In this document: piece after piece, positions 1 to 47,905 of the stretch
How positions within the stretch are numbered: the first letter of the stretch is position 1
How the letters are laid out: every line of letters begins with the position of its first letter
Source: Mesaphorura yosii
Lineage: Eukaryota > Arthropoda > Collembola > Poduromorpha > Tullbergiidae
Reading direction: 5' to 3'
Length of the DNA stretch: 64,000 bases
NCBI GenBank assembly: GCA_009869945.1
Contig: WIXG01000213.1
Location: forward strand, 62,001-126,000
Program-made: the position numbers and the translations under genes
Notes under the pieces: model-generated
Seen by the model: only the letters and a program-made list of their open reading frames with translations
The model's database searches: none
Told to the model about the DNA's origin: nothing

Positions 1-3000
1 CAGTTTCACGAATTCGTAATGCATTCGGGACGAGATGATGGAATATATCTGATTTTCACAAGATCTCTAGCAGTGTAATCGATATTGTTGCGTAAACGCA
101 TAATTGTTGTAAAGTTCGCTCGAAATACTTCAATTACAAATCGTACCATTCTGATTGACGACCAACTGCATTGCCTCCGAAGGGTGTAAAGTTATTTCGT
201 GTGCGCCTTTCGTATTGAGGTTTTTCATTACGGTTTTTGAAATTCTCGCCAGCCACCGAACCGTGAGCTGATTTGACTTGACTAGAGACCTTTTCTGGTG
301 ATTGTTGCCATTCGGTTTATCTCTGCGGAAAATCTGAGCCACACTGTGCTAGCCTTTCTGATCGCGGCCTTCTCGTCCGTGCCCGTCAAAAAGTGAGCAT
401 CGAAATCGCAACGAAGGAGAGCGAAGCCCGAACACTTCCAATTTCATTAAATCAACGAAGCGCTAAGCGCTTATGCGAGCGTTGTGTTTCTATTTGAATG
501 TAACTTGGAAGCAGCTTGAATTGATTGTGACAAGTGACAAGTAGCAACAAGAGGAATAATAAGATTTTCTCTTCTTAACCTATTTGTCCAATGCTTTGCC
601 TTGACTACCAAATTCTTTGAAGATAAGCATCTCTGGCCGAGCAGCGCAGATCCACTTGGGCATTCACATGTAATGCGAGACACGACTCTAGGCTCGGGCA
701 GAGGAATACCGACGAGAAAGCCACAAACTACAAACTGCCTTCAACCCGTCACTTCTTTTGTGCGCCTGAAGTTCACGCAGGCATAAATAAACAAACAAAC
801 GAATAAGAAGGAGAAGGGTTAATTTCAGGTATTTAAAATGCAAAGAGAGATGAAAGGATTATAAATAGGCTTTAACTGTTCTTCGCATTCTTTCCCTGAT
901 TCAGGAATCGCATTGTCCCGGCAATTATAACGAGACCGCGAGTGCGCATGCATGCGTGCATGCATTCCAACAGAAAAACCACCAAAAATGTTATTTATTT
1001 TGGACTATTGTTCACGCATTATGAAAGGTGTAATGTTTCTTTGAAATATACACGGACAATACAACAATCATCGCATTGCGGAGGAAGAGTGTCAAGTCAA
1101 GTGTTTTCTTGATCCCATTCGCCAGACAAAGGGGACCAAGGCAAGGCAAAGGAGCACACACTGGCTCACTTTCATGTATGTACGTGGTTCGACAGCAGAA
1201 GACTGGAGAAAGGGTTGCTATCATTAATCTCGATAACTGTTAACTCTCCGGTGGCCAGGAATTTGAGTAATTGAATCCAGGCATGTCATGCTCCCAGTAC
1301 AAATTGAGCTTGTAATGGCGTGCAATCAAAGCCAAGTTGGAAATTTCGAACTTTAATTAAATTTATTTTATGAATTTAACCCAATTTCCGGAACAGTTTG
1401 GCTTTAACCATCAAATTCCAAGTACGTTGGAATTTGAATTGACGGCTTTTCTTTACCAAGGTGTTTTGGTGCCGTCAAAACTCTTTGATTCATCTTAACG
1501 AGAAAATTAAACCCAAGTGACACTATGACACTAATCCGCGATGTTCTTTACAAGATATTTCCTAAAATGCCAGTTCGTTTTCTACCTCTTGTAATTGTGT
1601 GCCTGGATCCGTGGATCCACTTTCCGTCGGCTTTGTACCATAGATTGACATTTTGTTCGTTGTGTGTGAGCAAATGTGGTGCTTAACTTTTCGCTCAAAA
1701 TACTGACAATCTAGTACAATTTCGCTTGAGCTAAAGATAGCCAGTTAGTAGCGCCAAAATCGAGGTCATTATTTAATTCGAGCTTGTAATTCGAGATGCC
1801 CAATCCTTGCCTCATGAAACGTGTCCCAACATTTTACAACGGTTAGAAAATATCCAAGTCTCAAATGTTGATAAACGATTGATTGACGCTGTATTTATGT
1901 TAGAAACCATTCTTCCTGTTGATCGCACTCATCTCAACGATTTTCGTTAAATTGCTGCTCAATGTCGTTCGGAAATTTCTTATCTGCGAAACTATAAGAC
2001 AGCAAAGTACCCCAATCATTCGATTGTCCGGCTCCTCAGGATTTATAATTTCTTCATCTGATGGTTCTGAGAACGGGCCTCGTTTACTTATGAGTTTGTG
2101 AATCATAGCTCTGTACAAACAAACTTAACATCGTAAACCTTTGTGAGGTCACTCGTAATACTTCGAGGTCAATTGCTGGTATTTTGCTGCTAATTTGATT
2201 CTTCATGGGAACCAAAACCGTAAAATGCATTTCCCTTTTTGAGCAACCTGAAGAATGGGAAACCGATAACCAAATGACCGTAATAACACTACTAATCAAT
2301 TGTCATTACGGAGCCGATGACGACGATCGGAAATCCAAGCTTCCAAGGAGGAAACAATAGTAATAGGCCATAATTGTAATAATAAGGTTAACGGTTCACG
2401 AGACCAAAAACGTCAAAGTAGTTCGTGGTGTCCCAAAAGTCCATTTTAGTGCGCCGTGATTGATTGGCGATAATAAAACTCGTCACTGCAGTAACGCACA
2501 GGGTTGATGTATCGAAGAAAGGAAAATTGTGCCATAAATTCCTGAGCCACCTTACCCTGAAGATCTAAATAACCGATGATAATCACTGTCTTATTATTAT
2601 CATCGTTGTTGTGAGCTTCCGAGACCTCATCAATCAATCCACTCGAATTTCATTCAATACGGAGGCTTGACTGGATATATTCGGATGCTGTATTTAGAGC
2701 GTTTGACTACAAAATTGGAGGTGAGAAATTGCGAGTTCGTTGTGACTGTGGCCATGAGCCGGTGGCGTCCATGTCCTTGCCTGCGAGGTGCCCCGTCACG
2801 TCATGTCATCATCACACTTTGAGCAGCGCGTCGTAAAACGTAGAAAATGCTTGGCATCGCATGGCGAGGTCCAAAGAGGGAATTTCTACTTTGGTGGTGT
2901 CTCTTCAGGTATTATTACCACCTTTTAGGCCCAATATTCCTTATTAATATGAACAATAATAAGTGCTCCTTTTCACTCTGTTCATGTTCACCGAGTAAAA

Positions 3001-5924
3001 AGAGTCAAAACAACAGCAAACATTTTAAATCACTCTGAGGGGTCCTCCGTGAGCCTTTTTGTTTCCAGAATTCAGAACTCTTTGGTGCAGCACAAAAGAA
3101 TGTGTGAGCATTAAAAAGCAAAAGGCTTCATGCTCGGTTTTTTGTTGTGGTTTTCTCACTGGTCGCTTCTTGTTATGGTTGCACGCAACAATGAGCACCA
3201 AACACCATATCAATTGCATTTCACAGAGAAGGTTAAATAAATACGGTGTGACAAGCTACAGAGATTCTCTTTCAGGGCGAGCGAGATAATGACACGATGC
3301 GCTCTCTCATTATCGGCGCATCACCATCACCGTCGTAATAAATTATCGTAATGGCTTTCGACTCCTTGCCCGAACGAAGAACGAATGGAAGTCAATAACT
3401 CGACTCGTCATAAATTCAAGGCATTCGAAGAAATGAATGAATACTGAAATCGAAATTTTCGTGCGACATAGTTTCGGTGGTCCGGAGTTCAATGGAATGC
3501 AATGGCAGCTCATGTCGCATATTTGCAACTGCATTGGAGCTGTTTGTTGTGGGAGTGGTCAACGCCTGACAATTATTCATTTGGACTTTTCAGAGTTGAA
3601 ATTGTCCGAGTAAATGTTTTGACCGTCCCGAGAGGGAAAAGCAGAGGCAAAGGTACTCGAATACCGAGCCAAGGCGAGATTAGATAGTTGGATGCATGGA
3701 TTGTCAAACAAAACAAAAAAGTCGAATCAGATTATAAAGTACGCGCACCTCAAACACCAGCAGGAGCAGCAACTTCACTTCACTTGAGGTAAAATTTCGA
3801 CGGTCGGCCGTTCGTTCGTCGGCCGAACTTCTGTTTGCCTTTTTATTTCGATTTCCCCAAACAATACTTTTATTTTTCTCCTGCGCTCGTTTCCCACGCC
3901 TTGAACACTTTTCCATTCAGCGCCGAGTTATACGATTGTCATTATGCCTTTGCGCGCACTTTCTGCACCGTGCTATAAAACAAACTCAAAGCAACTTGAC
4001 TCGACTAATCTCCTCTCATTGCCTTTTCAATAATTCGAGTAAGTGACCCAACTTCATTTCACTGACAAATATTTCTGCAGTCATCCCATTCAACGAATCG
4101 CCGGCAATCGCCGCCCGTGTCCCGTTGCATTTCCGTGCAAATCACTCCCAACCTCCTGAAGCCATATTCCGCTATTCGAGTCTCATTCATTCGCATCGTC
4201 TTAGAACGAAGGCGAGTATCGGCCTCAGTATTTGTTTGGGCTTTGAATTAATGCGATATGAAATCAAACGCAGACTTGCGTGGAAGAGGACGAAGGGCGA
4301 GCAATGTGAGATGAGGTAAATTTAAAATGCATTATCTGAGTAAACAGAAATGACAAGCGGATTTTCTCAAGTTGCGCATTACCCAACGCCCGATGCAATG
4401 GGACAACTACACAGAGAGCGAGTATCAAGTTCCAATATAACTCTAGTGTAAACCCTCACCTTGTGTACACATGCTAGGCCAGTGAGGCCAGGTGAGTGGA
4501 TAATTGAATAATGTGTTGTGTTATTAATCAGTAAATCACTTACATAATACAAATTGCATTATAATTCATACAACAATGAATACTGCGGAGCTAATCATTG
4601 TCATTAGGGCTCATAAACGAACGGACGGCGAGGGCAATGCAACGGACGGATCTATACAGGCAAGCAGAAAGGAACCGCATACTTCTGCCTCACCGCTGCC
4701 TGTGTGAGAACCGCACTGGAATGAAGGTGCAATAAATCCATAAACGTTTAAAGGTTCTTGGCTAGTCAAAGTGATAATGTCATAAAACCCAAAGTGCAGA
4801 GCCAATGAAAAGGTTGCAGGTTTGCTTGTTTTATGATGACCAGTGTTGCATTACGGTGCAGACGGGATTTACGATTCTCAGCCGGGTGATTGCTGAATGG
4901 TTCCCATGATTCGCTAAATTGTCACAAATGCATTAACCTTCTGACCTAATCATTTACCGGCAAGCTGTCATTCACCGTAGAAAATGTTAGCGTAAAGATA
5001 CAAAAGATACAAGCTTCAGATTCCTCCAAGCCAATTCATTCCGAGTCGTGAGTGTGATCGTTGACAAAATGATTCATATTTGTAAATCTGTCTTCCGACT
5101 TGCCCTTCATTCTGACGCTGATAAGAATTTGTATTTACACACACGCAGTCAGCTCAGGAGCTATTACATGCGATTACAATTCAATAATAAATCCTCTTGA
5201 TCTCATGAAGATTCGAGTACAATTCCAACAACCATCGCCAGCCAGCTACTTAACCTTCACGCTAACATGGATTTAGACTTTGACATGATGCTCTCAATGA
5301 AATTCGTGCGACTCCACCATCGCTCACCGCGGAGAAGAAACGTCGAGTTAAATCTTTAGCCTTTCTGATGCATAAAAAATCGAGTCAACTCAAAAGTCTC
5401 TCGAGATTAGAATGGAGCGAGTGCGATGATGGTAACTTTGGTAACGCGAGTAAAGTAAAGTGGGATCACAGGTTGTCGACTTAAGTTAATGCGAGTCTCA
5501 AGTCGTGGTCGGTCCCCAGCCCGGAGTCCGTATCTCTTCCTTCGTACAAGATGCTCTCTGACTTTCGTACGGCTATTAGTTATGAGAAATCTTGAACAAA
5601 TTATGATAATGTGAACAAGAGTCCGGGCCAGACTATTAAAGGACTCGAAACAGGATTCCGTTGGCGCCTCCAACAAATCAAACATTCATGTTGTTGGAGT
5701 TTACGGCGAGCAGCTCCCTCGCCGTAAAATATTACGTGATTTGTAAATGGGTTTCATCCATCGCACCGCTCGCTGCGTGCGGTGAGCAATCAATTTGAAT
5801 CATGTCAGCCGCCCTAATTAACAATGTGCTAATTGGCAAGAATCGTTACCAGAATTTAATTAAATGAAATGGGCATAAACGCCATAGTGTGTGTTGCACC
5901 TGAAAGAAAGACTGCACTGCTTAC
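1..5924 (-). other. hedgehog intron 1 (partial), no coding exon seen
   Basis: No reading frame here resembles the remaining hedgehog exons or any other family I recognise. The stretch sits immediately 3' of the donor site of hedgehog exon 1 on the minus strand, so it is best read as part of that first intron, which then exceeds 5.9 kb. It includes a palindromic GCATGC run (943-966) and a GC-rich repeated TCGGCCG motif near 3804-3828. Introns of this size in a region of otherwise tiny introns often hold enhancers; that is inference. Confidence 0.5.
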
Positions 5925-6638
5925 CAGATTCATGAGGCGATCAGCACCAGTCCCTTCGTCGTCCCTGAATATAATATCCGTGTTGTAGTTTGGCACGAGT
6001 TCCTTGAAACGTTTGTGGTCGTCAGGTCGAATAGGCCCCTCCGAAATGCCAGACGCCTGAGAATGATGCTCTGGAATATTTGGAACGTGTTGTTTGTACA
6101 CTAATACCGTGAGTTTGCGTGGGGCGCGTCGACGACCCACGCCACGACCTGGTCCGCAGCCTTCGACAGAGTTTATCAGGAAACTATTTAGGAGAAGCAC
6201 GCCAACTAAAACAAGGCACAAATAGTATGTCGACGAGGACGCAATCGTTTTTGTCCGTTTTTTATCACTAAAACCGCGAGGATTCCAGGAGGACAGCGGT
6301 GACGTACACGAGTCTCGAGTCAACTCAAAATCGCACAGGTAAAATTGAGTGAAATTGTTCGTCATGGCACTGTTGGCGCAATAAGGTGCCAGCAGATCGT
6401 CGTCTCGTAAGACGCTGGGTGCAATTTGGGGCGCTTGAGATTGCAGGAGCTCGAAATCAACGCCACGCAAGTGTGCTTTGGTTCCGTCACTTTCCACTTT
6501 TCCCGTTTTCCACTTTTTTCCACGGTCACTTTCCGTTTCCATTGTCACTTGATATAATTTAGAACCGCAACTCGTGTAATATGATTCGCGATACCGCGAT
6601 GAATTATGCTGCTGACGCGATGATGTCCGCAGTCTCAA
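5925..6638 (-). CDS. hh: Hedgehog, first coding exon (partial gene)
   Basis: Secreted morphogen precursor, start of the signalling domain. From the first Met (6638) the exon encodes about 238 residues. A hydrophobic segment (residues ~138-156) is the signal/anchor and is followed by the diagnostic [11 protein letters not shown] motif; its Cys (residue 161) is the residue palmitoylated in the family. The conserved stretch then runs through [16 protein letters not shown] and GTGADRLMN, where other hedgehog genes also break exon 1. The donor is CTG|GTAAGC, with the exon ending at 5925. The start is uncertain: Met codons at 6638, 6542 and 6365 are in frame, and the last gives a pre-domain length close to Drosophila Hh. 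The rest of the signalling domain and the autoprocessing Hint domain are not in the window; they should lie beyond its left end. Confidence 0.93.
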
Positions 6639-7147
6639 GATTCAGTCGAAGAAATGCAGTCTGCTCGCGATACAGGGTGCATGCAGTCCAATTTCTTATT
6701 GACTGAGGCCGAGAGCAAAAGCATGAAGTGAGGTCTTTTACAAGCTTCAAAAATGAAATGAAGCAAAACGAAGTCGACTTATGATGGGCCTACAACAAAT
6801 GCAACCACGGTTTTCCGGGTTTGTATAACACCAAAGTGCTTCTTCTGAGTCTGTATCAAAACTAAAAATGACAGGCAGATCTTGAAGAGAATTAACGTGT
6901 TTTTCCTGCCGTGCACCGTTCTCCTTTCGGATTGGCTACTCAGAGATGAGTTCGTGTTTCGTATAATTTCTTTGCGTGTTCCTCCTTCTTTCTCATGTTC
7001 CTCTGAGCGTCGTTCATCTTGTGCCTGCTTTTGTGAATGGTACATCAGAAACCATACACAATCCGGAGAAGTGAAGTGCATTGTACAATTTAATGCGGAA
7101 TTGCAATTTTCCAAAAGTATCGATTCGTATTGATTACAAACATGATT
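6639..7147. other. intergenic, likely hedgehog 5' region
   Basis: This lies upstream of hedgehog on the minus strand. The frames here are short, overlapping and without family resemblance. It presumably holds the hedgehog promoter and 5' UTR, but I cannot point to a convincing TATA box or initiator. Confidence 0.4.
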
Positions 7148-11009: not shown

Positions 11010-12663
11010 TTACTTTTCCGCCAACTGAAGAATGTTGCTCGTCTCCTCCCTTTCCTCCTGAGTTTTACTGGAGCCAGAATAATCAGTCGGGATTTCTACA
11101 ACGTCGTCACTGCCACTGTCTGCTTTGGCAGCAGCCGCTTTTCGTTCAAGCTCCCTCTTTCGTTGTTGATCACGAAACTTTTGAAACTTCAATTGAAGAA
11201 GATCCTCCATACTTGGTTGATCATCCTTTTTATCAGGCGTAGAACTTGTTGCAAGCTTCCTCTTCTTTTCGAAATCTGTGTATTTGGTGGTGGCTCCACT
11301 GTTCTGCGAACTCGAACTGGGGCGTTTAGCCAGAGCTGACGTTGATGATGAGACCACGTTTGAAGAGGAGGCAAGGGCACCAGACGACTCGACTTTTGTT
11401 GTGGACCCTTGTGATGAACTTGCATTCCCAGATGGTACAAAGGTTGCAGGGCCCTTATCACGAGACAATGAAAACGAAGTTATTTTCAATGTATTTTCAG
11501 CATGGTAGGCGACTAATGTAGGTGGAGATTTAACGGAACACGTAGCAACTTCAGAAGTCTGTGTTTCTGGTCCGTTGGACAGAATCGTAACGTCATCACC
11601 TGAACTGGAACCTATATAAGAAAACATTCAATAAGGAACATGGCCCTGATTCGAATTCCCTACTTCACATCAGTGAATACCTACAATAATTACCTTCTCG
11701 GACCAACACCGGCAGATCTGTATCATGAGGTACTGTTTTCGACTTCGGCCCTGGGCGTTTCTGCGCTATGCTCGGTGAAATTCCAGTTGTTTGAAATCCT
11801 TTCTTGACAGTTTCAACCATCTTTCGACGGCTAGTGGACGCCACAGCCACTGTCGTGGTCGTAGACGACGGAGAAGACGCGGATGGTGTATTCGATGCTG
11901 TTGTACTTGGTGTACTTGCTTTCCTGGGCGGCGGCTTGCGCTTAGGTTTTGCTTTTTTCTTCGGTGGGCAAGTGGCGCCGCGTCTTGCAGGTGGTGCCGC
12001 CCCTGGTGTTGGATGAGCAGAAGAATGCGCGACCGGAGAAGATGAAGGCTCAGGCGTGGGAGTCGAGGCCGGGGTTGGATTGGCTCGTGATCTAGCAGCT
12101 GATTCCTGTAAATAATTATTGGGATTGTACAATTCCTGATTTAAATTAGCAACCAAACCTACCCTCCGTTCTTCCTCCACCCTAGTGACAGTAATATTCG
12201 GACGCTGAAACGTGTGTCCGCTAACCATCGGGAGTACCTTCAGCTTTGTCTTGTTTCCACTTGCTGGCATGCTGACACCATCAGCCTTTGATTTTTTATT
12301 TGCATTAATATCACACGCGGGACAATTTTCGTATAGTTCCTCCAAAGTCTTATCAACATTCAGCAAGACCCATTTTGCTTGAGCTAGCTGATTTACAATG
12401 GAATCGACTAAGGTCAAACCACGTTTAAGTTCATCCTAAAAATATGAGTATTGAAATTATAGGTTAGCTCCTACTTAAGTAATTGTAAACTTATGTTTAC
12501 CAATCCAGTCACGTAATAATAAAGGTCTCACCTTCAAACTGGCTGTTAAGGAATCCAAAATTATGACGTGGTCCGAGTGCAGATTCGTAGACGACAGGCT
12601 CAACTTCCTTGAGGTGCTAGCACCGCTTTTACTCTGGCTCTCTGAAGTAGTTAACATCTTCAT
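11010..12663 (-). CDS. uncharacterised Ser/Pro/Lys-rich protein, paralogue A
   Basis: I do not recognise the family. Three exons read well: 12663-12532, 12435-11694 and 11611-11010, joined in phases 0 and 1, giving 491 residues. The N-terminal module, right after the first intron, is an amphipathic-looking stretch (GLTLVDSIVNQLAQAKWVLL) followed by a CPAC pair. A long low-complexity centre follows, rich in Pro, Ser, Thr and Ala with basic patches (KKKAKPKRKPPPRK), which looks nuclear. Near the C-terminus is a charged helix (KFRDQQRKRELERKAAAAKA). The same N-terminal module and the same intron position (after LK, before DE) occur in the diverging gene at 14012, so the two are paralogues. A chromatin or transcription role is only a guess from composition. 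Confidence 0.75.
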
Positions 12664-14011
12664 GTTTTAATGACTGCCTCTGCACAGTCTGTCGTCTTTC
12701 CAAAAATCTAGAGAGGTAATTGCACCTTAGAAATACCTCCCAACAAAATCCCAATCCCACAAGTGAAAAATCCACTCTTACCAACCCCTACCACGGGTTC
12801 AAGTAGATCTCCAACTTGTTCAACGTGATCAAGATTAGTAGAACAAGAACCCAGACTCTACAAGGTCAGACCTGGAAATGACAAAAAAATTGGCATCAGA
12901 AGATCCAAAACACAGTGGTACTATGCTAAGCCAACGATTTACCAATACTGTTAAATGTGTAGACGTGAGGCAGTCGATATCGTAGTGTCGTTTCAAATTC
13001 TTGCTGCTCAATTTACCAATTTCCATGTGGTTTCAATTTCAGAAGTATGAATCAACATCTGCTGATCAACAGCAGTATTTCAGTTGTGGGAAAATAGTTC
13101 TGCCTCTTAAAAATTTCGGTAACGCACTTACAAAATTAAAAGCAAAATGATCACGTTGTTTCGTCAAGTTTGCGTTTAGTCGTCGAAGCTTGAGAGAAAG
13201 TAAACACATACCGTGTATACTCGATAATCACATGATTGCCTTCTCTTAATGCGATAACAAAGTCTCCAGCTTGGGGCCCCAAAATTGTGGATGCTTGGTA
13301 ATTATGCATATAAATTTAATGTGATTTAAATTCTGAGCTCTTAATCAGAAGTTTTCTACTATGCAGAACATTTAGGATGATAAATTGATAAGAATTTGTT
13401 TTCAGTTTGTACTTAGCTGATTGTCTCAAATCGCGTGCATTACGGTATTCTCTACTGCATGGTCTCTCTTGAAAGAGGAAAAAAACCTTTCGAAACTTGT
13501 GTTTATTCCTCAGCATTCGATTCAATTTAAAAGAGCACCAAAATTCAAGCCCTCGTAAGTCATAACTTGATATTTGGTGGTTGCGACTTGATGAGAGTTG
13601 ATAGGAAGCGGTTAATTGAAAGATTAGAGCTAAAACACCAAATATTTTGATTTCATAAATGTGGAACTGAAATTTGCTCATCATTAATTGAAGTTCAGAA
13701 TTTCATAGACGAATAAGAATCGACGAATAAGTCGATTGGTAAGAATTTCGTTTATTAATCACCACAATTGAATTTTCACTTTGACAGCAGTTAGAATTCT
13801 GGACACGTAATTACAGATCCTGCATCTTGTGATACTCAGCTGTTCTGCTTCTAGCAACTGGAATGTCTGAACGTGGCGTCTCGGCTAAAAGGTAAAGCCG
13901 GTCCTTTTAGCCTTCAACAAATTCGACGGAGGTAGTAATGCAGTGCTTTAATATTGAATTTAACAGTTTAGGTCTACTGACACCAAACCACCTGTGACTA
14001 CAATCGTTACA
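12664..14011. other. divergent intergenic region between paralogues A and B
   Basis: These 1.35 kb separate the two head-to-head start codons. Short minus-strand frames at 12835-13026 and 13316-13684 show no family resemblance. The region probably contains both promoters and non-coding 5' exons; possible acceptor-like sites lie before 14012. No TATA box stands out. Confidence 0.45.
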
Positions 14012-16859
14012 ATGAGTCACGAGAAATCGAAGAAGTCTGTAAAGAATCCTGAACCAGAAGCTCTGAATTCGTTAAAGGTATGAAGCATTTGTAGGTTTCC
14101 ACTCAATTAAGTTAACTCTTTCTAAGGGCCCAACTACCCAACTCTTACAGGACGAAGTTCGTCGAGGATTAAATCTATTGGATCAATGCGTAAATAACAT
14201 AGCACAAGCAAAATGGATACTCATTAGTGTCGAGGCTTCCATAGATCAGTTCCAGACAGGTTGCTCGTCTTGTAACGAAAAAGTTCGGGTTGTGAAGAAA
14301 GAACCAAGTCTACCAAATGTGGAGGGATCAAGCCTTATAAATGCGAAAGTGCACACCCTGCCTGTGAAGCCACAACCAACACCAAAGGACACTAATGCTT
14401 CCGATTCGGAGAAAAAGAAAATTGCGCAAGTAGAGCCTCGTCAGATCCCGCGAATTGCCATAAAAGATAAGACTGAAGATCTCAATGTAAGTTCAAGAGC
14501 TATTAGATTGAGTGACCTCAACAGACACGGTTATGTAGAAAGCATCGCATCAATTATAATTTTTCTCAGGAGCAGAAACCGACTAATACGGCTAAACGAA
14601 CCGGAGGAGCCCCGGGGAGGTCATTTCAAGCTACTTCGAAACCATTGCAAGCTGAGCGTTCCTTAAGCCAGCCAAAACTAAACAGTAAAAACCTGTCACA
14701 ACTTGAAAGCGTCCTTAAAAAAGGTATGTCATTTCGTAATTGGCTCACAAGCTCATATTTTTTTATTTTGTTTCTAATGCTGAATACTTATTTCAACAGC
14801 AAAGCTTACACAAGTAAGCCTTCAATGCGTGGCCGCTATTATGAGAGGAAGCAAGTCGATTAACATAAACGAGATACTAAAACGTGATCCAAAATTTAAA
14901 CTAAACTGCGAACTAAAAGAACGAAAGAAAAAACTATCCTCTGTTCAGTCTGAAGGGTCCTCATACAAACACACGTCTAACCCGCCTGCAAAAGAAAAGC
15001 CTCTAAAAACCTCCAGCCTTGGTCGTGAACGTGAAATTGAAATGATGAGAAAAGAGTCAGAGAAAGAGAGAAAAAAACATGAGCCCACCAAAATTCGAAA
15101 GGAGTCGCGCATTGAAATGAAAAAAAGCACAGAGAGCTATAACTCTAGGAAAGACTCGGTTCACTCTACCAGCAGTAGCTCTAAGCTTAAAAAGCGCCGA
15201 CACTCATCGTCTTCATCTTCGTCGTCACGGAGCTGTTCGACGTGTAGTTCTGCCACGATCGTAACAAACAAGTCGAAAGATCCTGCAGGTTCTGACACAC
15301 GGCAAGTCCCTAAGAAACCAAAAGCATTAATCAGCTCTGATGATGAGGGCAACCATAAGTCGCAACACAAAATTAAAGTTTCGAAAGATTCCTCTATAAA
15401 GTCAAAAGCCGCGTTGAAATATCACGATGACAGTAAAAAAACAGACAAAGCCAAATCAAAACGTAACCTTGATCACAACGGAAATGCTAGTGAGAAGTCG
15501 GAGTACAAATCGAAGGAGAAAACGTCGAGTATAGCATCGGATCGGATAGTTAAGTCGAATAAGCCTGAAGAGAATTATAATCAGAAACTGGAGGTCAAGA
15601 AGACTGAGCATATCGAAAAATCGAAGGGCAAATCTGATGATCAAACGACGAACGTGAGGACAGGTCACGACACTTCCTTCGACAAGCTCAAGTCAAATCT
15701 AGAGCCAAAAGAAAATTCCAAGAAGGAGTCGACCCCACAGCCTTCGAAGAATTCTAACATCAAGGAGTCAAACCCAGAACCTTCAGAATTCCCAAAGAAG
15801 AAGGACCTAAACTCAGAGCCTCCGGAAAGTCGTCAGAAAAATGAGATACAAGGGAATACTTCCCACACTCCCCAGACGATGGCCTCGAAACAGAGTGAAG
15901 CAATTTCCGAAAACTCCACTGCGGCAACAGCTGACACGCCTGAAACCCCGGAGATGGAGGACAAGTTTCAACGATTTCTGAGACAACTGAAGGCCAGGGC
16001 CGAAGGAAAGACGGAGTTGAAGGAGATAACAACACCACATGCGCTATTTACTGAAGCAAGACAGAAAGGAATAACGTCGTTGGACAGTCCTGCGTTCAAG
16101 CAATTAATTTTGGAAATGTTTAGACAGCATCAAGCACTAAAGGAGGCTGCGGCTAGGAAGGCAGCCGAGCAGGCAGGGAAGAAGAACACTGACCACGCAG
16201 GTTCGACTTCCCAGAAGATCAGTGAGAACTCCACTGAAAAGAAAGTCAATTCTACATTCACGAATCATGCAAAGCCAGGTGATACAGCGCAGGAATCGCC
16301 TAAAGTAGAAACTGTCCCTTTGCAATCAAAGAATGACGACGCAATTCCTGACGAAGATACGGAGTTGTACAACGAAGCCAGGCGTCTGGGAATCAAGTCA
16401 AAAAACAGTGACGAATACCGAAAAGTGGTTGATCATATAAACTATATGAAGTTCAAACAGAGTAAAGGGGAATTATTGATGTCCTTAAAAAGCAAGACGC
16501 AAAAAATGTTCCAAGGTGGAGCATCTCAGAAAGAGCAGAATTCTGATGATCCCGCTGCTAAATTGGTTGACGACGAGACTGGCCCCGCAGATGAGGAGTC
16601 CATGGAGTTAGAAGAGGACATAATAGGAAATTGCTTGGATGTGATAACTTCTACGTCTGGACTGCAATCAGAGACGGAGGAGCCATCATCGACAGTTGCT
16701 GTAGCGGAGGGAGATAACGCAGATCGCACTTCAATTGCCAGCGGAAAAGACTCTCGAAAATTGCCTGAATTAGTACCAACACCTATTCTAACTCTTCAGG
16801 ACACCGTCAGCCCTACCGCCATGAAGAAATTCTTTGGCAACGATGTGGTAGGAGAATAG
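14012..16859 (+). CDS. uncharacterised Lys/Ser-rich protein, paralogue B
   Basis: I do not recognise the family. Four exons (14012-14077, 14151-14486, 14570-14723, 14800-16859; phases 0, 0, 1) give 871 residues. The module GLNLLDQCVNNIAQAKWILI with a CSSC pair matches paralogue A (12663-11010) and follows an intron at the same place. Residues ~200-590 are a long disordered stretch rich in Lys, Ser and Glu, including a poly-Ser run near 15210. Two copies of a short motif follow: ALFTEARQKGITSLDSPAF (residues ~600) and ELYNEARRLGIKSKNSDEY (~706), each leading into a predicted helix. The C-terminus ends DTVSPTAMKKFFGNDVVGE. An AATAAA lies at 17148-17153. The composition suggests a nuclear scaffold or chromatin protein; this is inference. 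Confidence 0.8.
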
Positions 16860-17473: not shown

Positions 17474-20400
17474 TTACTTTGGGTTGTGTTTGGTATTAGT
17501 TGACTTCTTCGGTGGAGCAGGCTGGGTTTCGTCTTTGTCGGTGGCATGTTTTTGTTTTGGACCAGGCTTAGGTTTTTTGGGTTTGGGGGAGATAATCTGC
17601 GGATCCCTCAACAACTCCTTCAATTGGCGGTTGTATTCTTCATCTTGTTTCACCACGTCTACAACGACGCTCATCATCCCATGGCTACTGCAGGAACAGG
17701 AGTCGCTGCTCATGTCACTGTTGTCCTCGGGCTACAAATTGCCATTATTTTAGCCAATCAGCCAGAGAGCTTATGTATCATTCAATTTGAATGCAAAGTA
17801 TGACTTACAACAACTGCAACAGACGTAGATGAGCTCCACTTTCTATCGTTGTGAGTTTCTAAAACTGTTGAATTTCTTGCATAGGCTGCAGTGTACGTTT
17901 TGGGATCGTCCGGTGGTTCGTCAGGGATTTTAAAGTATAAGTTCTTAAATGTAGAGGCTGATTCCTCATCGTGGTCCAGTCTCAGAACAGTGGGGAAGTA
18001 GAGGCCGTAGGGCTTATCAATGCCAGGGCGGTACAGGTTTTCTGGCTCGAGTATTTCGGGCTCCAGCTGCTCGATGTGAACCAGTCGCCCGTCTAAGGAT
18101 TCCGTAGTTGAACTAATTGTTGGAGATCCATTTGGAATTAAAGCTTGAGGTTCTATTGAGGCTGGATTCGCGTGGGTACTTGAGTTTGATTTCAGTGGAG
18201 ATTCGCCATCAAAAAAGTCACTAGCAGACTTGGGTGCAATCACAATGGTTGAACTAGGCTCTGGGTTTTGGACTTCCTCGTCAGTAGTCTCCCCATCAGG
18301 TGGTGACTTCTGCAAGAAAATGGAACTCTCATCATTATCATCACCGTCTAACTTTTCGAACATTTAGAGTACTCACATTATATGAAATTGGACTGAAGTT
18401 TGTACACATGTTGAAGAAAACTTGTCCAATGAATAACGTTGCCGTTACACAGAATCCAAGGATCGTGAATGCTTGTAATGGCTTGTTAACCATTTGAGGA
18501 TTTGGCTCGTGAACCGGATCGAATTCGATTGGATGTGCGTCGCTGTTTGTATAGGCAACCAGTATCAATTGCTGCAGAAAAGTACAAACCACGACGAAAT
18601 TGATGGCAGTCCCATGCACTGATTTGTCAACTTTGCACGGAGCGTAGGCGAAATAAATATTGTAACGATCCACGTAATGCTTGAAGATCAGGTATATAAA
18701 TCCTGTACAAGGCAATTTGAATTGATTAGCTCGTACAATTAATATTGTGCGAGTGCGGTATTATTAAATTATCAACTCACCGAAAATCGTAATGATTGGA
18801 GTGATCAGACTAAAGAGGATGAATATAGCAAAGATCAACATCATCCAGGCGTACTGGGAGCCCAACTGAAAGTCCCACAACACTGATTTCCGAATTGCTC
18901 CAATATCTGCGGCTGATTTGGCGAAACAGATTTTGAAGCCGTAGACGAGCAGTTCGGGAATTCGCATCAATTCAGACATTGTGCCGAGAAAGCAGGAAGT
19001 AATCACGTAGTTGACAAAGAAGGACCCGTTCGATGGGGAAAAGATGCACTTCCATTGTGGCGGTTTGTCCCGTAGGAAAAAGCTGCTCGCACTACACATA
19101 AAAGGCTCGATAATGGAGATAAATCAAGAAATGTTTTGATGAACCTGAATTGCTCTCCGTCTTACCTGGTTAGACCCAATGATGGCAGGATGATTACCAT
19201 AAATAGTAGAAACGTAAATGTTTTAATCATTTTGGAGCGGTTCTCCGAAGTTTTTGTCCAAAACCCAATAAATCTGTCACTTAAAGAGACCAGGCTTGGC
19301 AACGTGACGGCTGCCAACCACAGCAGAAATGTTGGGACTGTGTCACGCATGACTCCTTCCTGCATACCAGAATTTATTACTGTTTAAATTTCAACGCTTA
19401 GAATTTTATAATACGAGTTCAAAAGAACTTACGATGGTGCTCGAAGCGGTTTCATGACTGGTCGAGTTAGCACTTTCCTCGGTGGCATTGCTTGGTTTGC
19501 CAGTAATTTTTTGAATTTCCAGATACACGTTTAGGGCATTGAGCAAGAAGACAGGAGTCGAGTAGAACAAAATAATGATTACCAACGTCAGATTGACCAC
19601 ACATGCTCTAAAATACCACGCCCTGTAGCCCAACGACAAGTGCTGCCTGAGTTCAGGAAACGTCGAAATGATTATTGAACCGAATATTATGCAAGAACGT
19701 ACATATATGCATGAATTAGTTTATCTTACCAGTACAGATCCTCGGGTAATGGTGCGAAGGATACAACCCAATTCCTAGTCTTCAACCGTCGGCTGAATCG
19801 TGTAACTGGAAGTTGCATCAGCGTGCGAGCACTTAACCGGTATTCATTTACAACCTCTTCTGCCACCTCTCTTGTGCGAAATGTGATAAATGCTACGCCA
19901 AGAGGTTTAGCATATGATCGTTTGCGCTCCAGTTCCGCTTGTTTGCGTAGTTTGTACTCCAAGTGGGTGTAGAAAGCTAAGGCATCAGTCTAAAACAAAA
20001 ATTATATTGTCGTAGTCGCAAAACATACAGCTGATAAACTCCGTCACGGTTTCTTTTTTCAACTTACTGTTTTCAAGACGCAACAACAACAGCAACAAAT
20101 ATTCCCACACGTGTAGGGCCGCATCAAGGGTCGTTCTCCTGACCCGGTAAGCAGAATGTACTCTTCCCAATATTTCCGAGATGTAACCACTCCGGCTCTA
20201 CGCAGGAAAATTGACGATATTAACAACTTGCCGGTACAAAAACTTGGCAAAAAACATCACTAGCTATGACAAGTTCTTACTTTTCATCCTCCAACTCGAC
20301 TAGTTTCGAGACATCATATGCAAGGCTGAACTCTTCAATTTCACAGTTTGGGTGTGACTCCCTGAAACAAAATTTAACAGCCATAATTAATTTAGCTACT

Positions 20401-21527
20401 TTGTAATGATTTGATTTGTTTGTTAAACTTACATAAAATGAGTCCGAATTCGACCTTCCGTGCAGTATCGCTTGGCGATTCCAGCAACTATTACAGTTCT
20501 ACGAGTGAGGGTATCATCTTGCACGAATTTCAAAGAGCGAGAAAAATGTCGCATGACAAAGATGCTGAGGAAGAGGAAACCCAAGGCCAACAACTCGTGG
20601 ATCCAAAGCAATTTCGAACTAGGACAGAGTAGGAGCGTACTTAAAACGAGCATATCGATTTTATCGAAGAATAGCAGAGTAATTGCTTACTCAGAGCCCA
20701 AGTTGAATATTGTTGACTGCTCGAAGACACTGATGTCTGGTTTAATGTTTGGGTCTCTCGATCCTTGAAGATTTAGTGGCAGCACAATGACTAAAGATGC
20801 CAATGTTATCACAGATGCCAAAAATATAAGATGTCTTTGGTAAGATAAATACTGAACAGCATCGGGACCACTTTTGGCTAAAAGCTGCTCGTCACTACAA
20901 AATTTCAATACAAAAATGTTAGAGTACAGTATTAACCTTAAGAAATCGTGGTTCATGGATTCATAGTCACTCACGTTAACACGTATGTAATTTTTATCCA
21001 ATCGAAGTAACCGCTGTCATCAAGAGCACGTCTTGACTTTGGACGAGCTTTTGGTTTGTTGTTGTTTCTCACTTTATCAGCAGAACGATAAAATAGCGTG
21101 GTCCAGCCCACATCGTTTAGAAGAGCAATTCGTCCATAGTTCCATGCTTTTTTCCGTAGATATGAAAATGCGAATACCAGAATCTTTAAAAAAAAAAGAG
21201 ACCGATTAAGATTATGTTGTTACTCCAAAACACTGTAAAGTGATGAATAATTGTTTGACACTCAGGACTTACAATTAAGCCGACACAGTTAAGTAGAAGA
21301 TTTTGTGGTATTCCCTCGTAGCCCCGAATTAAGAAACCCTTTGATCGTCTCCTCCATTCCCTGTAAATGTCACATGATGGATCATCGCTGTACGGGGATA
21401 CGGTCGTTCTTTGGATACGATCATCGGCAGTAGCATCTGTATCGGTGGGAGCTACAAAGATTTGATAAACATTGCATAATTTCAGATTAGAGCGGCATCA
21501 AACTTTAATTAAATACTTACAGTCCAT
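17474..21527 (-). CDS. Tmem63: TMEM63/OSCA-family mechanosensitive cation channel
   Basis: Multi-pass channel of the OSCA/TMEM63 family, which opens on membrane stretch or osmotic change. I assemble 14 exons totalling 957 residues (21527-21521, 21451-21273, 21183-20975, 20894-20691, 20618-20433, 20361-20281, 20197-20068, 19989-19730, 19646-19433, 19359-19166, 19091-18781, 18702-18377, 18309-17809, 17731-17474). All borders keep frame. Hallmarks: KAWNYGRIALLNDVGW near the N-terminus; SYQRHLIFLASVITL; a Cys-rich loop CGNICCCCCC; SYAKPLGVAFITF; the pore-region blocks NRSKMIKTFTFLLFMVIILP, FFVNYVITSCFLGTMSELMR, and HYVDRYNIYFAYAP. The cytosolic tail after the last helix is about 250 residues, longer than in vertebrate TMEM63 proteins, acidic and Pro-rich with a basic KPKKPKPGPKQK patch. 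The first coding exon is only 7 nt (ATGGACT). Confidence 0.95.
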
Positions 21528-27047: not shown

Positions 27048-28313
27048 AATTATAACACGCCCAAATTTATGGTTAAAAATCAATGCTTCAGTATTTTGTA
27101 GCCTTCCCTCCACCGCGAATTACTTCATAAATTCGTTTCTTCATTGAATTTATGAGCTTTCTTAACGTATCAAACAGGATTTTGAGCCACTCCCGTCTTA
27201 CAGCAATCTCGAGTTCAGCCTTGTGACTGTTTTTGTTTGTTTCCAACAGCGTAAATATTGCGTGCTAAAATTTCCCACAAGTTCCACGTGGCAAGAGATA
27301 TTCTCTCAGGACGTTTTGCTCACCTTTGGCGTTTAGTTTTGTGTCAATTGTCGCTAGCCCACTTGTGCCGTTCCATCCAAAGGCTCTCCAAACAATTAAC
27401 GAACCGCCACCTTGAAGGATTTCAAACGGGTTTCATTTGTTGAAGGAGGCTGATGCCAGTGACCGATTAAATTTGCAATTATCTTGTCGCTTCAAAAAAA
27501 TCTCCGGCTCCTATTGCAGGTCGTGCCAGTAGTGTGACCACTCATTGGGTCCAAGCAAATTAAATTTTTTCTCGTCAAAGAACACGACCTTCTCCCATTC
27601 ACGATCCCATCCCATATGCTCCTTTGCAAAATTCAGCCTTTGTTCAAGGTGCATTGCAGTCAACGGGTGTTTCTTTGCCTTCGTCATGTGCTGCAGGTTC
27701 GGCGCAGTCATCAGCGTCCGTTGAGCGCTTATGTGGGAAACTGGAGTGTACAATTCTGTTGAGATTTGTTTGATTTGTAGAGAATGTTGTTTTTCTCCAG
27801 GCAATCTCACTGTAAGCCTTTGATTGCGCTAGGACAGAAGTCTTGGTGCTCGAGAGACCTTAATTGATTATACTCATACCTAGGGTGATGTAATTTTGGA
27901 CGACTGGCCGGGATTTGCCCAGCGATCGAGCGATTTGGCTTTGGTTTTTACCCATCTCGAGTCCGGCGTCGATCTTACCCTTCTCACGTTCACTGAGAAC
28001 TCTGGCGCGACCCATAGCTAAACGTAAACTGACACATTCTATTAGGAAAGGCTCATTTCTCCTTTAGAAGGCCCAATAACGGTATTCGAGTTTCCTGTCG
28101 AGATTATTTTAAGACAATCGTTCAATTTTCGAATGTGCGGTACCATTTTGTTACGGGAATCTTTTGCATTTCCTTTAGTCACTGTAAATTATTACAGCAA
28201 GGCCCCAAATTTATTGTGAGAATGTACAATTAGCTCGTGCATATAGTCCACATAAGCATTTGCTGATACATTAACTACTCGGAACCCAAAATTTTAGGGG
28301 TGCGTTATCATTA
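27048..28313 (-). mobile_element. inactive Tc1/mariner-family DNA transposon
   Basis: A cut-and-paste element of about 1.27 kb, the usual Tc1/mariner size. The ends carry imperfect inverted repeats: TATAACACGCCCAAATTTAT (27051-27070) on the left, and GGAACCCAAAATTTTAGGGG then TGCGTTATCA (28281-28310) on the right, complementary with small gaps. Between them lies the remnant of a transposase on the minus strand. The exact ends and TA target duplication are not certain. There is no second copy in the window. Confidence 0.75.
27088..28015 (-). pseudogene. Tc1/mariner transposase, frameshifted and internally deleted
   Basis: DDE/D transposase relic. From ATG at 28015, a helix-turn-helix part reads MGRARVLSEREKGKIDAGL, then QIARSLGKSRPVVQNYI, and stops at 27860. 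The second helix-turn-helix and first catalytic block are in another frame (27810-27511): [20 protein letters not shown], then [12 protein letters not shown] with the first Asp. The next block GGGSLIVWRAFGWNG continues to about 27300. The region holding the second catalytic Asp (normally a QDNA-type motif) is missing between EYLLP and NLWEILARNIYAV. The C-terminal end LINSMKKRIYEVIRGGG then GKATKY, stop at 27088, matches the family. Several stops and shifts make it non-functional. Confidence 0.85.
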
Positions 28314-42265: not shown

Positions 42266-42347
42266 GCGAACATGGCCGAGCGGTTAAGGCGTCTGACTAG
42301 AAATCAGATTCCATCTTGGAGCGGAGGTTCGAATCCTCCTGTTCGCG
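42266..42347 (+). tRNA. tRNA-Ser (anticodon AGA)
   Basis: A complete 82-nt class II tRNA. The acceptor stem GCGAACA pairs exactly with TGTTCGC, followed by a G discriminator. The D arm (GCCGAGCGGTTAAGGC), anticodon stem TCTGA/TCAGA with loop CTAGAAA (anticodon 42299-42301), a long serine-type variable arm (TTCCATCTTGGAG), and T arm with GGTTCGAATCC are all present. It has no intron. A and B box promoters are intact, so it is likely active. Confidence 0.97.
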
Positions 42348-43631: not shown

Positions 43632-44193
43632 CTAATCTGGAGCTGAAGCTCCTTCCTCCTTCTTTTGGTCTTGGCTTCCCTGGCTTGTGCTGGATTCACC
43701 TGTCTCGGCTTCACGGTGATGCATGACGTAAATCTTCTGCTTGACCCATAATCTATCCTTCGCGACGTAAGTGCATGACGACTTTTGGAATCTGCAAAAC
43801 GTCAAATGTTATCAAATTGAGTTCAAAAGCTGACCAAAAATGTCCTCAATGTCGACTAGTGAAGGCACTTAATTAATGATTGCTCAGCCACAGCATTACT
43901 TACATAAATAAACGAAAGTCAGGGAATGCGTCTATGTAAGCCAACAGGTCCGCCATTGCGTATGTGACGACATCCTTGCCAGGATTCATTTGAATAATTT
44001 GCTCTTCATACATTCTGCAAAGACGGTCCAGGCAATCATTGATCGATTCGAAGTCCTGGTAAGCTCTAATTCGCTGGCCAACGTTGCTTTCAAGTAGTAG
44101 AATCGTATGAGCCTTTAAAAGAATGGAAACATTAAGCCATTTCCGTGATGCTAAGTGCTGAGGTGAAGGTACGTGAAGGGACCATCTTACCAT
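43632..44193 (-). CDS. ERH: Enhancer of rudimentary homologue (ERH)
   Basis: Small nuclear protein that dimerises and acts in mRNA splicing, decay and RNA-silencing complexes. Three exons: the ATG alone (44193-44191), 44112-43904, and 43791-43632, joined to 123 residues. The core is clear: AHTILLLE at the N-terminus, DFESINDCLDRLCRMYEEQI, then VTYAMADLLAYIDAFPDF, SCTYVAKDRLWVKQKIYVMH. Divergence from human ERH is considerable, and the tail after the core has about 20 extra residues (GESSTSQGSQDQKKEEG), compared with the usual 104-residue length. The start relies on AAG ATG|GTAAGA spliced to an acceptor before GCTCATACG, placing the ATG directly before the HTILL motif as in relatives. Confidence 0.9.
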
Positions 44194-46755
44194 CTTGTTT
44201 ACCCTGAGGATTCTGGGTGAGATTTGTTGGTTCACGCATTAGTTTGAGTTGGTTTGGTCACTATGGCTGAAAAATATTAATTGAATTAAATGTTTCTCCC
44301 AAACGAATGATCAACCTCGCAATGATCGCATACTCTAAAACAAATAAAAGGCGAATGCAAGGCAATACATTGTAAAAAGGCACGCTAAAGTTGAATTTTC
44401 GCCACTGTTGCGGTTGCGACTTGCCGCGGTGCCTTATTCCCGTGATTTGGTTCACCCCTTTCACATTCGGGTTTATATTGATCGCGTGAATTCTCATAAT
44501 CTTAATCCTTGAAGCAGGCCAATCTAGCTTAAATATTCTTACAGCTATCAATATCAGTTGGTAGTTACCACGTAAGCCTTCAGATTCCAATAGTACTTGT
44601 TTCCAGTTTCTTGAACGGGTCTGGCAGCAGTTTTCTCATTATGATGCCGCAATGTGCGTCAGGTGTCCCGACGTCCACGAATTGAGAACACCGTTACAAC
44701 TTTTTAGCTTTTGAATCAACGAACTGTGATTTAGTTGGATTAGCAAAACTAGACTTTAATTTTCTATAAACGAGATTCCAAAGCGCCTACTCGTGGCTGT
44801 GCCCCAGTCGACTGCAACTGTGGGAAACGAAAACCTCAATACGATTCTTGGATTGTGGCACCATTTATACAGAATTTACCATTGTTTCTAATTCGAAGTG
44901 AGACATAAAGCCCATGCTTATGTGTTTGTTCTTGCCGCATGTATGTAACGTTTGACGTTGAATATGAGACGGGGAAGCTGTGATTATGACGTGAGTGATG
45001 AGTTTGCAAATTCTTAGTTTTATAGATTTAATTTTCTGGCCATAAAAATTCAAATTTCTTGAGACATTAACTTCTGGGCTCAGAGACATGCATTTTTATC
45101 GTTCATGCTAAATTCGATTTATTCTCAGTCACGTTTGGAACTGGAGTTCAATCTTTCCCAGGTACAAGTACGAGTTAGAAGTGCCATGGGCTCATTTAAA
45201 ATGGACCAGGCAATGTCAAAGTCGATGCTAATGTAAACAGCAAAGCAAATCCATGTCCGAGTCCAGTGGTTCGCATTTCAATGAATTGCATTCGAAAATA
45301 TCACACTTTCAGTTTCATCTCCAGTCAAAGTGCAGCAAAGCATAAGCAGGGCACAGATTAGAGAAGCTTTGAGCATTCAATGGTCTCAAAATAGGTTGCT
45401 TGACCTTGAAGTTATCGGTAGGGTAAAAAGACAAGCCTCGATATAAAACGTTAAATAAAACACCGACTTCCAAAGGCGAATTGCATTTTGAGACATGCAG
45501 CAGTGTTGGTGAAACGTGAAGATGTGGACTCAGCACATAAAAATATTTTTATCGTGTTTGTCACCTTGAGCGAACACATTAAACATCAGAGGAATTTTCA
45601 GTGGTAGCGACAGCGCCTGCAGAGTGCAGTGCACGGGTTCTTTTTTTTCGCTTCGAACAGGAATAAGAACAATGAAAATCTAGGACAGCGTATTTAATTA
45701 GGAGTAATTCCAAAGTGAGTTTGCAGTCTCCGAAGTTGTGGGCAAGTACAATATCTCAGTGAGATTTCCAGTGTGCAAATTCTCCAACAAGTTTCCGGCC
45801 ACCAGTTGATTGATTTTCGCCTGTTGAGTGTTGAGTCAAGTTTGAACTCTTCTGACATCAAATTCTGTCTCAGCATCGTGTGGGGTCTTCAGTTTTTATT
45901 ATCAAGCGCTTCAGCTTTAGAAAATAGATCTTAGGTATTCATATTTTCAACATTTCGACACCAAGCAAAGCACAACGTAAATAAACCTGTAGCAACACAA
46001 TGCAGACAGAGCTAGAAGAGAGACTTTGAGATTTTTGCAAAGTACAAAGGTCGCACTTCTAAGAAACAGGAATAAATAATCGGCTCACAATTATAAAAGT
46101 ACAGGCATGCATAAGTTGTGCTAGAGTTCATATGCGGAAAATTGTAAACTTCGTGGTTTGTATTTATTTGCATGCTAAACTAGTAAACTCCCTAGAACTT
46201 TGAGCACGTAAAGATAAAAGGAATCTTGTATTGTGTCTGTCCGTAAATGCAAGCAAGCACGACCGCAAAACATGATTTCAGTGTTGCTGCTCCATTTACT
46301 CCAAATGATCGTGCTAGACGTTGTATACAAATAGCAGGCATCAGTGTGCTCTGAAACCAACCAAGATCAAACGAGTTCACGGAGAGACCGAGAGTACCGA
46401 CAACAGACACAGCACAAAATCCGAGTGATGCACATTTATTGCCCGGATTTTGTGCAGCGTCTGACATTCACTGTTCGCACTAGTGCTTCTCACGGCACCG
46501 ACACCAGAGTCAGTACCAGTCGATGTCGCGACATCAGCACGGCTCCGACTCCGCATTTTTCGGAGTCAACTCGAGAAAGTTCCGGTGCCGCGTTCGTTCG
46601 ACTCCGATCAAAACCATGCCGTGGGAAGCACTAGTTCACACTCCTTCGAAGTAGCGACCCGAGTCAGGATCAGAGTGAGAGTGACACGCAATTCACCGTC
46701 CACATTTGTTAATTAACTGATTGTTTTTGTCAAATTATCTTCTGGATTCGTCACG
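44194..46755. other. intergenic, Mlx upstream
   Basis: No supported gene in 2.5 kb. The right part should contain the Mlx 5' UTR and promoter. Frames at 46344-46716 on plus overlap each other and show no resemblance to known proteins. Confidence 0.45.
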
Positions 46756-47905
46756 ATGCAAAACAATTTCGACAACGACTTGTCCATGTCCATGTTTGGT
46801 TGGTGGAACGACGTGCTGAGAGAAGACAGCGGCGGAGCTAGTGCAGGTCAGGGCAATAATGGAGCAAACTTCAAACTGGAACCGATCAGTCCTTCGGAGA
46901 AAGAAGTGGCTTCGATTTTTGGATTCTCAAGATGCAGCAGCGCCAATTCGGTCAACACGCTCTCGTCTTCAGCACAGAACTCAGGTAAGAAACTGCCGAG
47001 AACGAGAAGCCATGACACACAGGTACGCGCGAGCGTCCTTCTCTTTACTGGGGCAAGTTGATGCAACGGCTTTCACATTTCATTTACAGACGACGACGAT
47101 GACAGCGAAGGCAAAAACGGAAATATGAGCTATAAAGAACGTAGACGCGAGGCTCACACAATGGCTGAACAAAAGCGTCGGGACGCAATTAAGAAAGGCT
47201 ACGATTCGCTCCAGGATCTTGTTCCGATGTGTCAGCAGAATGACTCGTTGTCTGGATATAAATTGAGCAAGGCAACTGTGCTCCAGAAATCCATTGATTA
47301 TATTCAGGTATCCTGTCAACGTTTTCAGAGCCGACGGCGTACATCATCAGTCGAACCCTTCTGTACCTGTATTGTATTGTTTCAGTATCTTTTGCAACAA
47401 AAGAAGAAGCAAGAGGAGGATTTGGCTGCTCTGCGCAAAGAAGCTGTCGCTCTTCAAATCATGAAAGTCAATTATGAGCAAATTGTGAAAGCACAACACA
47501 ATCAGCCCAACAACGCTTCACTTCAAGTTTCCGATGAAGTCAAATTTCAAGTGGTAATTTCCAAGACTCAACCAAAACGAGAAGTTCAAGCATAAAGTTA
47601 AGCAGAATTTATAATTAACCTTCTACTTTAGTTTCAGGCTATCATGGACACGCTTTTTCATTCATTCAACTGCGGAATGAGCGTCATTAATTTCACGGAG
47701 CTGTCAGCGTGTGTCTTCAGTTGGCTCGAGGAGCATTGCAAGCCTCAGGTAACTCATATCTATTGCTAAAGCTGACTGGACATGTTGATAAGAACACAAA
47801 TAATATTTTTCGTCTCTTTTCGGAATCACGCAGATACTTCGTGACATGGTCCTGGGTATTCTGCACCAGCTGAAAAATCAAATCCAAATGAATGGAAACA
47901 TGTAA
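46756..47905 (+). CDS. Mlx: Mlx, bHLH-leucine zipper partner of Mondo/ChREBP
   Basis: Nuclear transcription factor that pairs with Mondo/ChREBP to bind carbohydrate-response E-boxes. Five exons (46756-46984, 47090-47307, 47386-47553, 47632-47748, 47834-47905; phases 1, 0, 0, 0) give 267 residues. The basic region RRREAHTMAEQKRRDAIKKG has the His, Glu and Arg contacts for CACGTG. The helix-loop-helix (SLQDLVPMCQQ, LSKATVLQKSIDYIQ) and zipper (QQKKKQEEDLAALRKEAVAL) follow. The C-terminal dimerisation/cytoplasmic localisation domain is complete (KVNYEQIVKAQH, VFQAIMDTLFHSFNCGMSV, ELSACVFSWLEEHCKPQ, LHQLKNQIQ). The N-terminal ~80 residues are less conserved, with an acidic run (DDDDDSEGK) before the basic region. 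Confidence 0.96.

Follow-up and report, generated by a model that had tools for sequence, protein, structure and literature searches.

The two genes that diverge from each other between positions 11010 and 16859 of the window (the whole stretch of 64,000 nucleotides analysed here) share a homologous module of 45 residues. This module exhibits a heptad periodicity in a common register, and searches of the assembly find just two copies of it. With moderate confidence we interpret the two genes, termed A and B in the following, as old paralogues from an inverted duplication, which would encode mostly disordered and probably nuclear proteins that have kept a coiled-coil interaction module in exon 2.

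The gene pair and its shared module

The exon borders and intron phases of both genes were predicted from sequence. GT..AG borders are found at all six predicted introns (three per gene), joining the exons yields open frames, and the predicted products comprise 472 aa for gene A and 871 aa for gene B. Gene A is located on the minus strand. Its exon 1 (12532-12663) encodes 44 aa, with a TAA two codons upstream of its ATG. Exon 2 (12163-12435, 91 aa) carries the shared module DELKRGLTLVDSIVNQLAQAKWVLLNVDKTLEELYENCPACD, followed by a variable linker and the sequence PNITV near its end. The predicted intron 2 (12106-12162, 57 nt, GT..AG, phase 0) separates it from exon 3 (11694-12105), which is rich in Pro, Thr, Ser and Ala and contains the basic stretch KKKAKPKRK. 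The Ser-rich exon 4 (11010-11611) holds a charged, Ala-rich helix candidate and two acidic-flanked V/I stretches, DDVTIL and DDVVEI, which we take to resemble SUMO-interacting motifs.

Gene B is located on the plus strand. Exon 1 (14012-14077) encodes 22 aa counted from the ATG at 14012. In exon 2 (14151-14486, 112 aa) the shared module DEVRRGLNLLDQCVNNIAQAKWILISVEASIDQFQTGCSSCN is again followed by a variable linker and, near the end, by PRIAI. The predicted exon 3 (14570-14723) leads to a long exon 4 (14800-16859) that is rich in Lys, Ser and Glu. A putative extra 5' coding exon (13863-13891, plus strand, starting with MSERGVSAKR) would join in frame to 13972. The coding starts of A (12663) and B (14012) are spaced by about 1.35 kb, or by 1.2 kb if gene B begins at 13863.

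Residues 42-86 of A align without gaps to residues 20-64 of B, with 21 of 45 positions identical (BLAST E 4e-14). The alignment score of 132 was reached in none of 1000 shuffles that preserved local composition (mean 24, maximum 50). Within this alignment the CxxC pairs of the two proteins coincide, being CPAC in A and CSSC in B. For 41 aligned codons of exon 2 we found 21, 8 and 26 differences at codon positions 1, 2 and 3, respectively; such a sparing of the second positions is what selection acting on the protein would produce. Half of the identical residues among these codons (9 of 18) are encoded by different codons, and judging by the codon differences in exon 2 the duplication looks old. 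Both the diverging pair and the common N-terminal module with its CxxC, as described in an earlier note on this DNA, are thus borne out, the former by two four-exon models with stop codons exactly at 11010 and 16859.

The assembly searched comprises 93.0 Mb in 1127 contigs. A third copy of the module was found neither with the B module (E up to 10) nor with the A module (default limit), and the only two matches lie adjacent to each other. With a homologous module, a divergent orientation and a common intergenic region, A and B form a head-to-head pair of paralogues. Homology is demonstrated for the 45-residue module only and likely extends to the end of exon 2.

Extent of the proposed duplication

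Intron 1 lies at the codon boundary LK/DE in both predicted models, with GT..AG borders, at the identical position that had been claimed before. The predicted phases of the three introns are 0, 0 and 1 in A as in B. Intron 2 is probably also placed at an equivalent codon boundary, beside the match to PxIx[VI]. When the 16 residues that end exon 2 were aligned without gaps at the exon 2/3 border, 273 of 20000 shuffles reached the score, compared to 1849, 160 and 200 of 20000 for the three other window sizes tried. Moving the border-anchored 16 residues to other offsets gave an equal score in 3 of 855 cases in B and in 3 of 456 in A. In gene A the 57-nt intron 2 is itself open and in frame, and an open reading frame (11665-12435) spans it, such that one of the three equal phases hangs on a putative splice; this intron may be retained rather than spliced. 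The exon 3/4 border is without sequence support (668 to 3321 of 20000 shuffles across four window sizes), and only its phase is equal.

Outside the module A and B are mostly of low complexity, and both proteins are probably nuclear. Protein A contains 16% Ser and 10% Thr, protein B 14% Lys and 13% Ser, and both contain basic clusters, which would make a nuclear location likely. Aligning the whole remaining parts after the module gave a score that was reached by 56 of 1000 shuffles and is not significant. The earlier note had furthermore claimed a charged Ala-rich helix towards the C-terminus as a second shared element. This claim found no support: a 45-residue Ala-rich stretch of A scored 40 against the entire exon 4 of B, a score that 124 of 1000 shuffles also attained, and the note's own 20-mer fared similarly (184 of 1000). 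Within exon 4 of B a helix-turn-helix unit is repeated (15930-16556, plus strand; 1 of 1000 shuffles), the two copies, LFTEARQKGITSLDS and LYNEARRLGIKSKNS, lying about 100 residues apart. A single-sequence model of this region yields two helices per copy, at residues 36-45 and 54-84 and at residues 142-152 and 161-195. Fold searches with the repeat region provided no usable match, and a PDB search with it gave one chain at E 2.8.

The main rival to a full inverted duplication is a duplication of only the 5' part, i.e. the promoter side with exons 1 and 2, which was inverted and joined to unrelated downstream exons. The module would then be common to both genes while full-length paralogy would be absent. 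The insignificant likeness beyond exon 2, seen for the post-module parts as well as for the C-terminal helix, and the unsupported exon 3/4 border are in agreement with this scenario, but disordered tails diverge fast, such that dissimilarity is expected after a full duplication too. In addition, the equal predicted intron number and the equal phase of the third intron count against it, as weak evidence. We consider a duplication of the 5' part possible, though rather unlikely. The inverted duplication with fast divergence in an unnamed family, as originally proposed, still agrees with the shared module, with the equal intron phases and with the lack of a third copy. The equal phases and the likeness at the exon 2/3 border come as additional, weaker supports, while the C-terminal helix falls away as a second shared element.

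Predicted structure of the module and search for relatives

AlphaFold2, for which the input alignment consisted of two rows only (A and B), modelled the module as one long single helix comprising residues 2-36, with a mean pLDDT of 92 across the first 20 residues. Modelling the module alone had been suggested in the earlier note. From residue 44 on the confidence was low, and pLDDT was below 50 in 48 of the 91 residues. The heptad score was reached by 0 of 20000 shuffles for A and by 2 of 20000 for B, and a hydrophobic heptad core runs over several heptads. The best heptad register is identical in A and B and places the CxxC cysteines on consecutive a and d core positions; a shared register would arise between homologous helices in any case. 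Since Gly or Ala occupy some of the d positions and hydrophobic residues some of the e and g positions, a bundle of several helices or the groove of a partner is as good a fit as a two-stranded coil. Beyond the shared CxxC there are two further cysteines in A and six in B; of the latter, one lies within the helix and two form another CxxC at 331. Zinc binding is thus only a guess. We infer that the module may offer a surface for oligomerisation or for binding a partner, and that zinc or a disulphide would hold the end of this surface.

In the simplest account, a four-exon ancestral gene would have been duplicated in inverted orientation, after which the disordered tails would have drifted fast while selection on exon 2 continued. 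Conservation would be clearest in this exon, for a heptad helix some 36 residues long whose C-terminal end bears the CxxC on the a and d positions that come next; a variable linker and perhaps the short motif PxIx[VI] would follow. This helix would most likely provide a coiled-coil surface for pairing, be it of each product with itself, of A with B or of both with a shared partner, and zinc or disulphides would hold together the two CxxC of such a pair. Separate functions may reside on the tails of A and B, such that the proteins would have diverged outside the module.

No Pfam model reached its cut-off on the pieces of A and B that were scanned. In gene A the first scan covered exon 4 and a continuous reading of exon 2 through intron 2 into exon 3, in gene B it covered exons 2 and 4; a second scan took six shorter pieces, one of which also included a minor part of exon 3 of B. 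Matches below the cut-off were treated as noise, namely NID on exon 4 of A (E 0.14 and 0.052) as well as Phostensin_N (0.029) and Nif11 (0.098) on pieces of B exon 4. PDB searches with module queries returned no chain better than E 0.11. This value belongs to ribosomal protein S6, matched by the two-row profile of A and B, and marks the noise level of the profile search. Neither module was thus placed in a known family by Pfam or PDB, so that the outcome that would have spoken against the earlier note, i.e. two modules from different known families, did not occur. A literature search on four peptide strings of the module gave no match, and searches on CxxC coiled coils and on head-to-head paralogues found nothing, which does not imply absence from print.

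One could suspect that the module derives from a mobile element and represents a degraded zinc-binding domain of the integrase HHCC type. The Pfam model zf-H3C2 matches around the CxxC of A (E 0.26 and 0.14), and two retroviral integrase chains match A weakly (E 0.2 and 0.27). The zf-H3C2 matches amount to 12.1 and 12.9 bits against a curated cut-off of 26.7, B is without a match, and much of the likeness between A and B falls outside the matched part. Moreover, in the zf-H3C2/HHCC domain a histidine pair precedes the CxxC. The module of neither A nor B contains a histidine. Exon 1 of A contains HSDH, located 49 residues ahead of C82 (the first cysteine of the CxxC) and without a counterpart in B, whose exon 1 contains a single His. 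We therefore judge an integrase origin highly improbable. A chance likeness of two unrelated coiled-coil proteins, whose scores could be inflated by coiled coils and low complexity, can practically be dismissed given the local-composition shuffles and the predicted intron at the same codon.

None of the libraries searched gives the module family a name, and diverged head-to-head pairs that share a coiled-coil module are of an ordinary kind. Short N-terminal coiled-coil dimerisation modules are found on disordered nuclear scaffolds. A and B resemble them in having a helix of about five heptads that is followed by a long low-complexity tail, but differ in that no Pfam or PDB relative was found for them and in that the helix ends with a CxxC which continues the heptad phase. 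In the zinc hook of Rad50 a CxxC terminates a coiled-coil stretch, and two CxxC could share one zinc. The CxxC of A and B similarly closes a predicted coiled-coil stretch, whereas the model shows no sign of a hairpin and positions the CxxC just past a single 36-residue helix. An ATPase match, as in Rad50, was not obtained in the exons scanned against Pfam.

Candidate motifs, neighbourhood and meaning

Each protein contains exactly one match to P.[IV].[IVL], namely PNITV in A and PRIAI in B, which precedes the exon 2/3 border by 12 residues. This pattern was chosen only once the alignment of A and B had been inspected, and its chance expectation is 0.43 to 0.57 per protein. Both matches fit the degenerate form xx[IV]x[IV] of a chromoshadow-domain ligand that is described for Mit1 in PMC6499331. 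Compared to the PxVxL ligands of HP1 they have a central Ile rather than a Val. Chromoshadow domains are present in the assembly (7 matching pieces), and a link to HP1 through the candidate PxIx[VI] motif is possible. A more far-reaching reading is that A and B form an obligate pair driven from the shared intergenic promoter region, with their CxxC ends locked by one zinc and with PxIx[VI] bridging HP1-type proteins to different chromatin partners via the unlike tails. They would then constitute a new arthropod family of chromatin adaptors, which we consider very doubtful. At the C-terminal end of B we noted FFGND, which we assumed to be a candidate for a motif that binds TFIIS N-domains. This candidate was set aside, since PMC12278311, as far as its accessible part goes, spells out the MYC motif only and gives no consensus to compare.

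Gene B is adjoined by a probable multi-exon membrane protein (window positions 17474-21016, minus strand). Its frame at 20687-21016 (minus strand) matches RSN1_TM and the frame at 18341-18760 matches nothing; presumably it is a TMEM63/CSC1-like channel. On the other side, an exon at 5856-6641 (minus strand) encodes a Hedgehog N-terminal signalling domain (E 5.9e-25). Farther along the window we found a fragment of a Tc-type transposase (27511-27828, minus strand; HTH_Tnp_Tc3_2 with 23.8 of 31.5 bits, below the Pfam cut-off), a tRNA gene (42266-42347, plus strand; 64.2 bits), an Enhancer of rudimentary homologue (43900-44238, minus strand; E 3.1e-18) and a bHLH protein (47062-47595, plus strand; E 5e-15) that we take to resemble MLX. 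They are followed by an NPC1-like gene (57144-60531, plus strand), in which the N-terminal, middle luminal and sterol-sensing domains are located in separate open frames. The assembly contains 66 matches to the cuticle domain Chitin_bind_4, as one would expect of an arthropod, and four low-scoring PBP_GOBP matches above cut-off. For 7tm_6 there was no match, but the controls likewise gave none, such that an absence does not follow. Searching the assembly for COX1 yielded no match, nor did three units of GATGGGTTTT, a tardigrade telomere repeat.

A and B provide a clear small case in which a 45-residue interaction module and probably the introns were kept while most else drifted, and the module points to a protein family that is absent from the Pfam copy searched. 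Otherwise they are an ordinary gene pair. If the modules pair, the two genes would offer a compact model of the change from homodimer to heterodimer that follows when an inverted duplication leaves both copies with a common promoter.
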